From: Nanobdellati archaeon
GTDB taxonomy: Archaea; EX4484-52; GLR71
Direction of reading: 5' to 3'
DNA length: 64,000 nt
Assembly (NCBI GenBank): GCA_019429005.1
Contig: JAHYJR010000004.1
Location: forward strand, 1 to 64,000
In this document: piece by piece, positions 19,256 through 61,970 of the stretch
Layout of the letters: every line of letters starts with the position of its first letter
Numbering within the stretch: the first letter of the stretch is position 1
Position numbers and translations under genes: made by a program
The notes under the pieces: generated by a model
Seen by the model: only the letters and a program-made list of their open reading frames with translations
What the model was told of the DNA's origin: nothing
Databases searched by the model: none

Positions 19256-20683
19256 TTATTTCTGACCGTATTCTTTGAATAATGGTGATTTTAAACAATA
19301 ATTTGAAGATGAAAAATCCATACTTTTAAAAGCAGTCTTTAAATATTGACTATCTAAATTTTCTAATATAGCCGAAATAGCACTACTTGTCTTTAATCCA
19401 GGTGAACTCTTACTTGAGCGACCTGTTGAATAAAACGGAATATTTCGTTCCTTAACAACTTTAGGGAACATAAATTCATCAGGTATATTTTCAAGGTCAA
19501 TATCAGAAATATTGAATACATCTTTAGATCCTTTTTCAAGATTATATCTTAGAGCAGCTGCAAGAATATAGCCTGAAAGCACTCTTTGTTCATCAGGAGC
19601 AATTGGTATCGCATTATACATAAAATAATCTAATCCATATAAAATACCATCCTGCATAAGTAAAGTAACATCATCAATTTGCTTTAAATCAATGATATCT
19701 TTTAATTTTTTATTTTGATCCATAAGATGATATATCACTTTCTTATTAGATAAATCTGAAATCAATAATTGATAATCATTATTACCATCTACCGTTATAC
19801 GGCTACCCTTATGTAATATTGACCTATCATCAATTCTAAATGGAAACACAAATTTATCTTTTGAAAAAGAAAGCATTTTTGTTTCGGTCTCAAACACAGA
19901 ATCTAATTTTGAGTTAACATAATCAATTGCAGTATAAAAATTTTTATTTCCTAAAAAGCCTTTAAAATCCCATGGTTTTTCCCATTGATCCAATGTCACA
20001 AAAATTGAATTTTGTGTAAGATTTAACATCAAATTTGACAAAAGTTTTTCACTAAATTCTTTAAGTGAATTAGATTCATTAGAATATAATAATACTTCAT
20101 TTTGCATTTTATCAAATCGTAATAAGATTTCATCTTTCTTTTTTGTTAAAACTGCTGATGACACCATATCATCATTAAAAGATTTTTTTATGTTTGAAAA
20201 TAATTCATTAATTATGTTTTCAGTTGGTGCTTCCACCGATGAAGATGAACTATTATCTGAAATATCTTTAGATGTTAAAGGTATCCTAAATTTTTTTCCG
20301 CCAACAATAATTGTTCTTTCAAAACGAGAAATATCAACAGGATCTAAAACAACCATTGATAAAGCGGGTTTACCCATATCTTTTATTTCGCTTGAAAGAG
20401 CATCGGCATAAAGTATACCAACAAAATTATTTATAAAATAACCAAAAGTTCCACCACATTCAAAAAGAACAATATCTTCAACATTATCATGAGCATATTT
20501 CAATAATTCTTTCTGTTGAGATAAAATAAGATTTCCATCTAACAAATCTAATAATCTTTTACGATTATTTATAACAGAAATAGGATTCTCTGAAGAAATA
20601 TTTGAATAATAACCAACCTGGTCATTAAATGAACCTTCAGATAACCAATTATTTTTGTTACGTAAATTAATAATAAACACCAA
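19256..20683 (-). CDS. Hypothetical protein, 475 aa
   Basis: I do not recognise this protein. There is no ATG near the 5' end; TTG at 20681-20683 or GTG at 20678-20680 is the likely start. It appears soluble and mixed alpha/beta, with a Ser-rich linker at about 143-150. Notable stretches are VEDIVLFECGGTFGYFINNF near residue 75 and a C-terminal SSKSSPGLKTSSAISAIL. The start codon lies only about 8 bp from a 210-bp array of 14-bp repeats, so its promoter is inside or replaced by the array. It is probably co-transcribed with the MoaA-like gene downstream. Confidence 0.65.
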   Translation of the reverse strand: MVFIINLRNKNNWLSEGSFNDQVGYYSNISSENPISVINNRKRLLDLLDGNLILSQQKELLKYAHDNVEDIVLFECGGTFGYFINNFVGILYADALSSEIKDMGKPALSMVVLDPVDISRFERTIIVGGKKFRIPLTSKDISDNSSSSSVEAPTENIINELFSNIKKSFNDDMVSSAVLTKKKDEILLRFDKMQNEVLLYSNESNSLKEFSEKLLSNLMLNLTQNSIFVTLDQWEKPWDFKGFLGNKNFYTAIDYVNSKLDSVFETETKMLSFSKDKFVFPFRIDDRSILHKGSRITVDGNNDYQLLISDLSNKKVIYHLMDQNKKLKDIIDLKQIDDVTLLMQDGILYGLDYFMYNAIPIAPDEQRVLSGYILAAALRYNLEKGSKDVFNISDIDLENIPDEFMFPKVVKERNIPFYSTGRSSKSSPGLKTSSAISAILENLDSQYLKTAFKSMDFSSSNYCLKSPLFKEYGQK

Positions 20684-20690
20684 TTTTTAA

Positions 20691-20900
20691 TTTATTTACT
20701 TAAATTTATTTACTTAAATTTATTTACTTAAATTTATTTGCTTAAATTTATTTGCTTAAATTTATTTACTTAAATTTATTTACTTAAATTTATTTACTTA
20801 AATTTATTTGCTTAAATTTATTTGCTTAAATTTATTTACTTAAATTTATTTACTTAAATTTATTTGCTTAAATTTATTTGCTTAAATTTATTTACTTAAT
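20691..20900. repeat. 15-copy 14-bp tandem repeat with a higher-order pattern
   Basis: The unit TTTATTTACTTAAA is repeated every 14 bp, starting at 20691, 20705, 20719 and so on to 20887. One position alternates between A and G (TTTATTT[A/G]CTT). Reading that base along the array gives AAAGG AAAGG AAGG A, so there is a 70-bp higher-order period in addition to the 14-bp one. The rest of each unit is essentially invariant until the last copy. The array lies between the HAD gene's stop and the 475-aa gene's start, both read leftward. Expansion by blocks of five units is the simplest origin. Confidence 0.95.
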
Positions 20901-44771: not shown

Positions 44772-44805
44772 TTTCTTAATTTTTAGATATATTCTTTTGA
44801 TTTAA

Positions 44806-44838
44806 AATGCCCAATTTATTGGGCATTATTTTTTTTTA
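44806..44838 (+). terminator. Hairpin plus T-run terminator after csp
   Basis: AATGCCCAA (44806-44814) and TTGGGCATT (44819-44827) form a perfect 9-bp stem with a TTTA loop, followed by a run of about ten T. This is a bacterial-style intrinsic terminator. Archaeal RNA polymerase mainly needs the T-run, and FttA could assist. Confidence 0.8.
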
Positions 44839-44948
44839 TACAAGCATTATTTTTGATTATAATACTAAATATATTTTATATTATAAAATTACATTTAGCT
44901 TAAAAGCTATACATTTATAAATATTTAGGGTTAATGTTTTTTTAAAAT

Positions 44949-45073
44949 GCCGAAGTGGCTCAGCCTGGTTAGAGCGCTAGACTCATATGCGTATGAGTGA
45001 TGACTACAATTGTAGGATGATATGTTTGCGCTAAGAAATCTAGAAGCCGCGGGTCCAAATCCCGCCTTCGGCA
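44949..45073 (+). tRNA. tRNA-Met (elongator, anticodon CAT) with a 50-nt intron
   Basis: The acceptor stem GCCGAAG/CTTCGGC, D arm GCTC-AGCCTGGTTA-GAGC and T arm GCGGG-TCCAAAT-CCCGC are perfect. The anticodon stem CTAGA (44977-44981) pairs with TCTAG (45039-45043), with anticodon CAT at 44984-44986. An intron at the canonical 37/38 site spans about 44988-45037. The exon-intron junction contains a perfect inverted repeat ACTCATA-TGCG-TATGAGT, so the anticodon is paired with the intron before splicing. CCA is not encoded. The body matches archaeal elongator Met better than Ile(CAT). Confidence 0.9.
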
Positions 45074-46032: not shown

Positions 46033-46260
46033 CTAAAAAAGCAACAAAATAATCAAGATAAATAAAATTACAAACATAAATAAACCGATAAGCATCAGTG
46101 AATCATTTACAGAGACTAGTGGATCATCTGCTTTTTTAAGATATATTGTTTTACCAACTTTTTCAGAAAAAACCCAACCTTCAGATTCACGTTTTTTTAA
46201 GATACCCCGATAATTGATATTGTTCATATCTATAGTGATAATATCATCTGTATTGGCCAT
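46033..46260 (-). CDS. Small tail-anchored membrane protein, 75 aa
   Basis: Not recognised. The N-terminal 50 residues are polar (MANTDDIITIDMNNINYRGI). The C-terminus LMLIGLFMFVILFILIILLLF is one strong hydrophobic helix with no residues after it, as in tail-anchored proteins. The ATG is preceded by AATATTATATTATG-type AT-rich sequence, typical of leaderless starts here. Confidence 0.6.
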   Translation of the reverse strand: MANTDDIITIDMNNINYRGILKKRESEGWVFSEKVGKTIYLKKADDPLVSVNDSLMLIGLFMFVILFILIILLLF

Positions 46261-46488
46261 AATATAATATTATTAATGATGCTATTTATAATTTTTCATT
46301 TAATAACATTAATTGCATCAAAAGGTATATTTTAAAACCAATAACATTAATAACACTAATTTAAAGTATATACTCGAAAAACTATTTTATAATACATAAA
46401 AGATTATATAGAGCCATACTAAAATAATTAATACGTATTTATTTACGTAAATTGATTTTACAAAAAACTTATGTTTTTTGATATCTTA

Positions 46489-46535
46489 AGGGGATATTAT
46501 CTTGGGTTAGCTCAATAATACCCCTAAAGACCCAA
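46489..46535. ncRNA. Candidate structured RNA with pseudoknot-like pairing
   Basis: This lies in a 460-bp gene-free stretch (46261-46720). AGGGG-A-TATTAT (46489-46500) can pair with ATAATACCCCT (46515-46525), 11 bp with one bulged A. The loop contains TTGGGT (46502-46507), exactly complementary to ACCCAA (46530-46535) just after the stem. This gives an H-type pseudoknot or two mutually exclusive helices. The G+C of the paired parts stands out from the surrounding AT-rich sequence. It lies about 185 nt upstream of the Rpp30 gene and 229 nt upstream of the small membrane gene on the other strand; strand is undetermined. Confidence 0.45.
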
Positions 46536-46720
46536 ATACTTCTTATTTAATTTATAGATATTAATTATTTATTTACAACCAATGTTGTTAAATCATATTT
46601 AAAATAGATAAAAAAAAAGATTAAAAAATAGATACAAAATATCTTAATTAAACGTAATTACCTACAAAAAGTGTTAAATAAAGATATAAAAAGTAAAATA
46701 TAATAATATTATAGATTAAA

Positions 46721-47488
46721 ATGTTACGAAAATTTACAGATATGCATATACAATCAAATTTATCAACTGGAACAAGCTCAGTTGAAGAGATTATAAGATT
46801 TGCAGAAAAACTCGAATTAAACAGAATTGTGCTTGTAGATTACATAGATAAAAAAACAAATTTGAAAACTATTAAAGATGAAATAAACAAAGTCGAAACA
46901 AACATTGAAGTACTTATTGGAGCAAGCATACATGCAAAAGATAAAACATCTATGAATAAACAACTTAATAATGTTCGAGATCTGGTTGATATAGTACTAG
47001 TACATGGAGGCTTAATTGATATCAATAGAGCTGCAGTTGAGGACCCTCGAGTTGATATACTTGCATACCCTGAGCATGAGCGTACTGATTCAGGTTTTGA
47101 CCACATTATGGCAAAATATGCTGCTGAAAATAATGTTGCAATTGAAATTAATTTTAGAGATTTCCTTTATTCATATAAAAGAGTTAGAGCAAAAATTGTA
47201 AGTAATATGAGACTAAATGTTAAGTTAGCAAAAAAATACGGTGCACCAATACTATTATCAAGTGGTTCCAAAAATATCAATGATATGAGACCAGCAAGAG
47301 AACTTTCAGCCCTTGGTGTAATCCTAGATTTAAATCTTATAGAATCACTAGATTGTGTCTCAACAATACCTGAGAGGATTATTGAACATAACAAAAAAGT
47401 TAGAAGTAAAGAATTTATAATGCCTGGACTTAAATTAAAAGAAAATAATCAAAATAATATTGAAGGTAAAGATAAAGATGAGAATTAA
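46721..47488 (+). CDS. rnp3: RNase P protein subunit Rpp30 (Rnp3)
   Basis: This 255-aa protein has the TIM-barrel PHP-like fold of RNase P p30: FTDMHIQSNLSTGTSSVEEI at the start, LNRIVLVDYID, VHGGLIDINRAAVEDPRVDILAYPE in the middle and PILLSSGSKNINDMRPAREL near the end. It works with the catalytic RNA and Pop5, Rpp29 and Rpp21 in tRNA 5' maturation. The C-terminal 30 residues are charged and not conserved. The next gene, Pop5, overlaps its stop, so the two are co-translated, matching their known heterodimer. Confidence 0.9.
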   Translation: MLRKFTDMHIQSNLSTGTSSVEEIIRFAEKLELNRIVLVDYIDKKTNLKTIKDEINKVETNIEVLIGASIHAKDKTSMNKQLNNVRDLVDIVLVHGGLIDINRAAVEDPRVDILAYPEHERTDSGFDHIMAKYAAENNVAIEINFRDFLYSYKRVRAKIVSNMRLNVKLAKKYGAPILLSSGSKNINDMRPARELSALGVILDLNLIESLDCVSTIPERIIEHNKKVRSKEFIMPGLKLKENNQNNIEGKDKDEN

Positions 47489-47831
47489 AAAAATGCCATC
47501 AAACAATGAGCGAACAAGATATATAGTATTTGAAATATTATCAGAAAACACATTTGAAGCATCAAATATATTTCATGCAGTATGGAACTCAAGTCTTCAG
47601 CTTTTTGGAGATATAGGCACTTCAGAGTTATCAATGGCATTCTTATCAAACCTATATAATAAAGAAAAAAAGATGGGTATTTTAAAATGTAATAATGAAT
47701 CTGTAGAAAAAGTTAGACTTATTATTGCAAACATAAAAACAATTGAAGAACACCCAATTGTTATAAAAACTGTAGGACTTACAGGAACAATTAATTCAGC
47801 AAAAAATAAGTTTTTAAAAACAAAATCATAA
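47478..47831 (+). CDS. rnp2: RNase P protein subunit Pop5 (Rnp2)
   Basis: About 117 aa from the ATG at 47478, which overlaps the Rpp30 stop (a longer frame from 47460 exists). NERTRYIVFEILSENTFEAS at the N-terminus, NLYNKEKKMGILKCNNESVE and the VGLTGTINSAKNKFL C-terminus are typical Pop5 strands and helices. Pop5 pairs with Rpp30 to activate the RNase P RNA catalytic domain. No RNase P RNA gene was recognised within the window. Confidence 0.85.
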   Translation: MRIKKMPSNNERTRYIVFEILSENTFEASNIFHAVWNSSLQLFGDIGTSELSMAFLSNLYNKEKKMGILKCNNESVEKVRLIIANIKTIEEHPIVIKTVGLTGTINSAKNKFLKTKS

Positions 47832-60240: not shown

Positions 60241-61675
60241 TTGAGAGACACAAAATTAGGTTTTATAACTAAATAAAATATGTCACGTGTTGTTGACTTT
60301 TATGAAATAACAATGTCAAATGGATATTTCCAAGAAAATATGCATGAAGATACTGTTACATTTGATCTTTTTGTGAGGAATCTTCCTAAAAACAGAGGAT
60401 ACCTTGTCTCAGCTGGACTTGAACAGGCATTATCCTATCTTGAAAACATGACGTTTTGTGAAGACGCGATAGAACAATTAAAAGATCTTCCAAATTATGA
60501 TTTTAAAGATGATTTCCTTGATTATCTTGAAAAATTTGAATTCAAAGGCGATGTCTATGCAATAGGTGAAGGAAACTTAGTCTTTGGTCAAGAACCAATA
60601 CTTAGAATTACTGCACCAAGAATAGATGCACAACTTGTAGAATCCTATCTACTTACAACGATAAATCACCAAACTATGATTGCTTCAAAAACGTCAAGGA
60701 TTGTTCAGACTGCAGATAATAAAGTGGTAGTTGATTTTGGTTTAAGGCGAGCTCATGGACCCTATAGTAGTGTTTTAGGTTCAAGGGTAGCATATATAGC
60801 GGATGTCAAGCAACATCAAACATGTTTACAGCAGGTGAATTCGGCATACCACTCTCTGGAACTATGGCACATTCATGGGTAATTAGTTTTGATAGTGAGC
60901 TTGAATCTTTTCAAAAATATGCTAAAACATATCCAGACAACACAATAGCACTCATTGATACATATGATCCTGAAATAGGTGCACTAAATGCGTCAAAGCT
61001 CGGTGAAAAATTAAAGGATGTAAGACTTGATAGTGGAGACTTTGTAAAACTCTCAAAAAAAGTAAGAAAAATACTTGATTCAAATGGTGCAAGTCATGCG
61101 ATAATAACTGCAAGTAATGATCTTAATTAATATAAGATTAATCAGCTGTTAAATGAAGGCACTCCAATTGATAGCTTTGGTGTTGGAACAGACATGATGG
61201 TGTCAAAAGATGTGCCAGAATTAAGCGGTGTGTATAAGCTTGTCGAAGATGTGGATAATAAAAGGGTAATCCAGTGCCTAAGATTAAGTTGAGTGAGGGC
61301 AAGATAACATACCCATGTAAAAAACAGGTGTTTAGGATTGAAGATGCAGACAGTATATATGTTAAAGATGTAAATGGCTCATAAAAATTGTCCGATATGT
61401 GGGGTGTATGCAGACAGTATATATGTTAAAGATGTAAATGGCTCTTGAATATGAAGATGTGAATGAGATGTATGACAATGCAAGACCTTTGCTTGTAAAG
61501 GTGATGGATAAAGGTCATAACATATCTGAAATACCCGAACTAAAAACAATACAGAATACATTACAGACTGAACTTTCAAGACTGACTGCTGAATATAAGA
61601 CAATAAGAAATCCTAAAATATGTTGTTGAGATATCGCCAGAACTTAGAAATCTTGTGTTGGAACTTAAAGGATGA
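60241..61675 (+). pseudogene. pncB: Nicotinate phosphoribosyltransferase gene, multiply disrupted
   Basis: Pieces in several frames reconstruct one NAPRTase: VVDFYEITMSNGYFQENMHE, LRRAHGPYSSVLGSRVAYIA, then GIPLSGTMAHSWVISFDSEL and VRLDSGDFV, then FGVGTDMMVSKDVPELSGVY, then KITYPCKKQVFRIEDADSIY, and NISEIPELKTIQNTLQTELS. Lesions: a possible TAA at 60274-60276 before the ATG at 60280, one base lost near 60802, TAA at about 61128-61130 in SNDLN*YKI where the family has Glu, one base lost near 61272, a duplicated segment at 61344-61444, and another lost base near 61620. The NAD salvage function from nicotinate is certainly gone from this copy. Confidence 0.9.
61344..61444 (+). repeat. 37-bp direct repeat inside the pncB pseudogene
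   Basis: A 37-bp sequence beginning ATGCAGACAGTATATATG occurs at 61344-61380 and again, identical, at 61408-61444, separated by 27 bp. The intervening bases include codon-like sequence (AAAAATTGTCCGATATGTGG) that could encode the end of a CPxC-type domain of NAPRTase. A local duplication during decay is the simplest reading; no transposase or terminal repeats are present. Confidence 0.9.
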
Positions 61676-61700
61676 ATCTTAAAGGATTCATCTTTTTTTA
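61671..61700 (+). terminator. Hairpin plus T-run after pncB
   Basis: GATGAATC (61671-61678) and GATTCATC (61685-61692) form a perfect 8-bp stem with a 6-nt loop, followed directly by seven T, A and a further T run. It overlaps the pncB stop codon. It is still perfect although the gene is decayed. Confidence 0.75.
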
Positions 61701-61782
61701 TTTTTTTGTTAGATTTCTAAAATCAACTTATTTAAATTTTTGTCTCTAACTTTTAATTAAGGCTAAAGTAAAAACAAAATAT

Positions 61783-61970
61783 ACGGCAGTGGTTTAGTCT
61801 GGCTATGACATGGGCTTCCCACAACCGCATAATCGGTTGACGCTTAGGGCGACTGTACCTTTGGCACAGTCACCAACTCTTATCACAACGTGATAATTGA
61901 TTAATGTTTAAAATGATTATGCGTTTGGAAATAGCCTATAACCCGGGTTCAAATCCCGGTTGCCGTACCA
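61783..61970 (+). tRNA. tRNA-Gly (anticodon CCC) with a 111-nt structured intron
   Basis: Acceptor stem ACGGCAG/TTGCCGT, T arm CCGGG-TTCAAAT-CCCGG and encoded CCA at 61968-61970. Anticodon stem TGGGC (61811-61815) pairs with GCCTA (61934-61938). The loop reads TTCCCA before the intron, giving anticodon CCC at 61818-61820. The intron at the 37/38 site spans about 61822-61932. Inside it, CGCATAATC (61826-61834) pairs with GATTATGCG (61915-61923) and encloses hairpins GACTGT...ACAGTC and TTATCAC-AAC-GTGATAA. The A1-U72 first pair is unusual for tRNA-Gly. Confidence 0.85.

Follow-up and report, generated by a model that had tools for sequence, protein, structure and literature searches.

In AT-rich archaeal genomes, GC islands in intergenic DNA are a signature of small RNAs (sRNAs), mainly from hyperthermophiles. 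The small H-type pseudoknot riboswitches (preQ1-I, SAM-II and fluoride) combine a compact stem with a loop that is complementary to the 3′ tail, and the operator dyads of divergent promoters are inverted repeats that lie between divergent genes and are symmetric on both strands; in archaea, operators usually overlap the promoter. A short G/C-rich element at positions 46489-46535 of our window (the whole 64,000-nucleotide stretch of DNA that was analysed) has features in common with all of these systems, and an initial annotation had proposed that it forms a pseudoknot or a switching RNA.

The window belongs to a genome of 1.08 Mb in 15 contigs, which is archaeal as judged by its genes for RNase P p30 and Pop5, an FttA-type beta-CASP protein, a histone and the proteasome. 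The element is located in a 460-bp intergenic region (46261-46720, 17% GC) in which no open reading frame (ORF) of at least 30 aa was found, in agreement with the gene-free gap initially described. Downstream of the gap lies the gene for RNase P subunit p30 (rnp3, 46721-47488, + strand; Pfam PF01876, 5.6e-35), followed by a Pop5/Rpp14 gene (~47475-47831; Pfam PF01900, 1e-21), and on the other side a 75-aa ORF with a hydrophobic C-terminus and without a Pfam match is encoded on the − strand (46033-46260). Since this ORF runs leftward and p30 rightward, both gene starts face the gap, which therefore constitutes a divergent promoter region. The element, which had been placed far from coding sequence, is thus inside this promoter region, 186 nt upstream of the p30 start codon and 229 nt from that of the divergent ORF. 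A 15-codon ORF (MFFDILRGYYLGLAQ, 46471-46518, + strand) overlaps the element and stops inside its stem, and is probably a chance occurrence. TATA-like AT-rich sequence is present near both start codons flanking the gap, and in relatives a TATA-like box is found no more than ~50 nt from the p30 ATG. Such positions suggest leaders so short that the element falls outside them, although TATA-like boxes are weak, uninformative evidence at 17% GC; to judge from sequence, the element probably lies outside both neighbouring transcripts. If the leaders are indeed short, it follows that the element is either a small transcript of its own or a DNA site.

The letters of the element are as first reported. 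AGGGG-A-TATTAT (46489-46500) and ATAATACCCCT (46515-46525) form a stem of 11 bp in which a single A is bulged, and its loop, CTTGGGTTAGCTCA, contains TTGGGT (46502-46507), the complement of which, ACCCAA (46530-46535, + strand), lies beyond the 4-nt linker AAAG. The element is also a G/C island, with 40% GC vs 17% in the gap. Past an A/A mismatch the stem is extended by four more pairs (TCTT/AAGA), and the loop can fold on itself as TTGGG-TTAG-CTCAA (46502-46515, + strand), in competition with the pseudoknot helix. In separate evaluations, the stem with an open loop reached −9.9 kcal/mol, −13.8 kcal/mol when the inner hairpin was added and −16.9 kcal/mol with the extension as well, and the minimum-energy fold of the element is a single long hairpin of −17.1 kcal/mol (z −2.1). 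Across intergenic stretches (~300 kb of the genome), the hairpin, at −17 to −19 kcal/mol, falls among the tRNAs and a few other hairpins in stability, while against shuffles the element hairpin alone has a z of about −2. Because the extension occupies 46527-46530 and the inner hairpin occupies TTGGG, the two exclude the pseudoknot helix, which would use the same bases.

This hairpin is the last of three back-to-back hairpins spanning 46426-46530, a cluster that the initial annotation had missed. In the fold of 46422-46542, the first hairpin or dyad (46426-46457) is AT-only except for two TACGTA boxes, the second (46461-46480) reads CAAAAAAC-TTAT-GTTTTTTG, and the third (46484-46530; TCTTAAGGGG-A-TATTAT / ATAATACCCCTAAAGA) is a near-palindrome in which either strand can fold. 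The whole of 46422-46542 folds at −30.1 kcal/mol on the + strand (z −5.0) and at −27.8 kcal/mol on the − strand (z −4.5), and on each strand none of 200 shuffles reached the same stability. An unbiased grid of 2098 sub-windows ranked by fold z-score places the cluster 4th, and some of the other high-ranking positions are simple repeats (e.g., an AT repeat at 20680-20863). The strongest z-score of the grid belongs to a tandem AT-rich repeat with a unit of ~AAATTTATTTACTT (20680-20880). Since both strands of the cluster fold almost equally, folding alone cannot separate an RNA from DNA dyads.

How unusual the element appears depends on the scale of comparison. Among 4000 dinucleotide shuffles of the gap, five contained a stem of at least 11 bp with at least four GC pairs, and two contained such a stem together with a GC-containing second helix, i.e., a pseudoknot. 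For the whole window, the expectation per strand is 1.85 for stems of this class, of which two entries were counted, and ~0.05 for pseudoknots of this class, of which one was found (the raw count of two was one stem entered at two lengths). The stem is therefore rare for the gap and less striking at the scale of the window. A 6-mer complement to the loop of the element is present in 0.8-0.9% of 16-nt tails and the window contains ~75 stems of at least 10 bp; at ~1% per stem, one loop-tail coincidence somewhere in the window is unsurprising. The six-base match between loop and tail that underlies the pseudoknot or switch proposal can thus be explained by chance.

Rfam covariance models did not match the element at gathering or permissive thresholds (a weak AT-driven match to an unrelated family adjoins it), which bears out the initial statement that it fits no known riboswitch class. 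DNA searches with the gap and the element against its own genome and 34 genomes of the phylum returned nothing beyond the site itself except partial, AT-rich matches, and no second copy was detected in its own genome by these searches or by a covariance model. This model, built from the single sequence and run over the 34 phylum genomes, recovered only the element's own site; of the two weak matches inspected, one was in an apparently coding stretch and the other at a gene boundary. Near-identical stem starts were matched 34 times in the genome vs 26 times for a reversed-pattern control, and the sole other exact match to the stem start lacks the partner arm. The element was not found upstream of p30 in relatives, and a p30 protein search of GTDB contigs returned no genus mates; the former absence says little, since the nearest p30 proteins are ~50-55% identical and their upstream sequence differs. 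A pattern of the conserved core that left the stem variable gave 21 matches among GTDB and IMG/VR contigs (in bacteria or viral contigs), with a first stem that never exceeded 8 pairs, and the stem pattern in IMG/VR yielded two perfect palindromes with different loops, which were judged to be chance. Plasmid and phage collections gave no match covering the element, and a literature search returned nothing on it.

The initial proposal of an H-type pseudoknot or conformational switch, taken here as riboswitch-like and placed in the + strand leader of the operon that encodes RNase P p30 and Pop5, has in its favour the second helix, an exact match of 6 bp that includes three GC pairs, 4 nt beyond the stem, the expectation of only ~0.05 such pseudoknots per strand of the window, and a rough sum of stacking energies with textbook penalties, which would put the pseudoknot near the nested fold. 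It is opposed by the nested hairpin and the stem extension, which take the same bases, and by geometry: crossing 11 bp in A-form spans 31.5 Å, or ~5.2 linkages at 6 Å, and the 4-nt linker offers 5, so that the crossing would be sterically marginal and feasible only if the linker were stretched or the end pair open. In addition, the element is probably outside the p30 transcript, the conserved core with a variable stem was absent from the GTDB and IMG/VR contigs searched, and neither a homologue nor an Rfam match was obtained. Of the initial annotation, then, the GC-island stem-loop in a gene-free gap stands, whereas its pseudoknot and riboswitch readings are unsupported; a pseudoknot is possible and not favoured, and we consider it improbable that the element works in this way. 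Less credible still is a ~110-nt lineage-specific structured regulatory RNA of three hairpins, the last of them switching between nested and pseudoknot forms, that would control the RNase P p30-Pop5 operon.

The divergent orientation of the neighbouring genes, the tandem arrangement of three near-symmetric dyads with about the same propensity to fold on either strand, and the symmetry of the third (TCTTWAGGGG / CCCCTWAAGA, such that the covariance model of the + strand gives 23.8 bits on the − strand of the site) would all suit operator or architectural sites for dimeric transcription regulators, acting as double-stranded DNA in the shared divergent promoter. However, the centre lies more than 190 nt from either start, which is far for archaeal operators, and the genome yielded no other instance of the dyad at this spacing; we regard such DNA-level dyads as rather unlikely. 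To the same degree unlikely, in our estimate, is a neutral origin, in which a functionless chance or decaying inverted repeat is conspicuous as a GC-rich feature in an AT-rich gap: the expectation for stems of this size and GC content is ~1.85 on each strand of the window, a 6-mer loop match occurs in ~1% of tails, no conservation was detected in the 34 phylum genomes or the p30 upstream regions, and the element alone reaches z −2, but the stem is rare in the gap (5/4000) and the three-hairpin block has a z of about −5. The adjoining RNase P protein genes, the GGGG strings, which we take to be reminiscent of archaeal origin boxes, and TTGGGTTAGCTCA, presumably similar to a tRNA 5′ half, could point to RNase P RNA, a replication origin element, a tRNA fragment or a leader or terminator hairpin, and we give these together a negligible chance. 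The RNase P RNA of the genome, matched by RF00373, is elsewhere (C11:269696-269951, 164.8 bits), the orc1/cdc6 genes are on contigs C11 and C8 and the GC skew of contig C10 does not turn near the site, the partner tRNA arms are absent and no tRNA was called, and no T-run or terminator-like site follows the hairpin, which consequently does not qualify as an intrinsic terminator.

Both tRNAs and terminator-shaped hairpins were observed at other positions of the window. An apparent intron-containing tRNA at 61784-61968 (+ strand), with a 7-bp acceptor (ACGGCAG/TTGCCGT) and an intron of ~100 nt with strong hairpins, was missed by ARAGORN and fell under the Rfam cut-off, and ARAGORN likewise missed another long-intron tRNA at 44949-45073 (+ strand), which Rfam detected at 57 bits. 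Hairpins followed by T-runs at 44804-44840 and 61667-61710 (+ strand) have the shape of bacterial intrinsic terminators, which is unusual for an archaeon, and the one at 44804-44840 directly follows a cold-shock-domain gene.

Our preferred reading, held tentatively and at somewhat below an even chance, is that the three back-to-back hairpins form a lineage-specific noncoding element and a putative orphan sRNA gene. The third and most stable hairpin would fold into a single long stem-loop rather than a pseudoknot, and the cluster would be transcribed as a small RNA of perhaps ~100-130 nt. A promoter of its own is suggested because the TATA-like sequence near the neighbouring starts implies leaders that are too short to include it; either strand could encode the RNA, with the + strand slightly favoured by folding. 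This sRNA reading has to contend with the lack of an Rfam match and of a homologue that could show covariation, with a hairpin that no T-run terminator follows, with a z of only −2 for the element alone, with TATA-like sequences that are uninformative at this GC content, and with near-equal folding of both strands, which suits DNA dyads too. The cluster consists of inverted repeats that are more stable than their shuffles, lies between divergent genes and is unique in the collections searched; it is real, locally unusual and outside known families, and is for now a putative noncoding element, probably of an ordinary kind. If transcribed, it would represent a candidate small RNA beside two RNase P protein genes, in a sparsely sequenced group of archaea. 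As it stands, it mainly carries a caution: the stems of a window like this one should yield about one exact six-base loop-tail match, and a nested fold can account for the same letters.

Compared with preQ1-I, SAM-II and fluoride riboswitches, the element has no covariance-model match, is not demonstrably in a 5′ leader, and has a longer first stem and a loop that folds on itself. It differs from the operator dyads of divergent promoters in its distance from both start codons and its single genomic copy. In relation to archaeal intergenic sRNAs, the element, which is known from DNA sequence alone, is without a recognised C/D or H/ACA box and without a homologue, but it shares with the sRNAs that stand out as GC islands in AT-rich genomes a GC-rich, stable stem-loop in intergenic, noncoding DNA.
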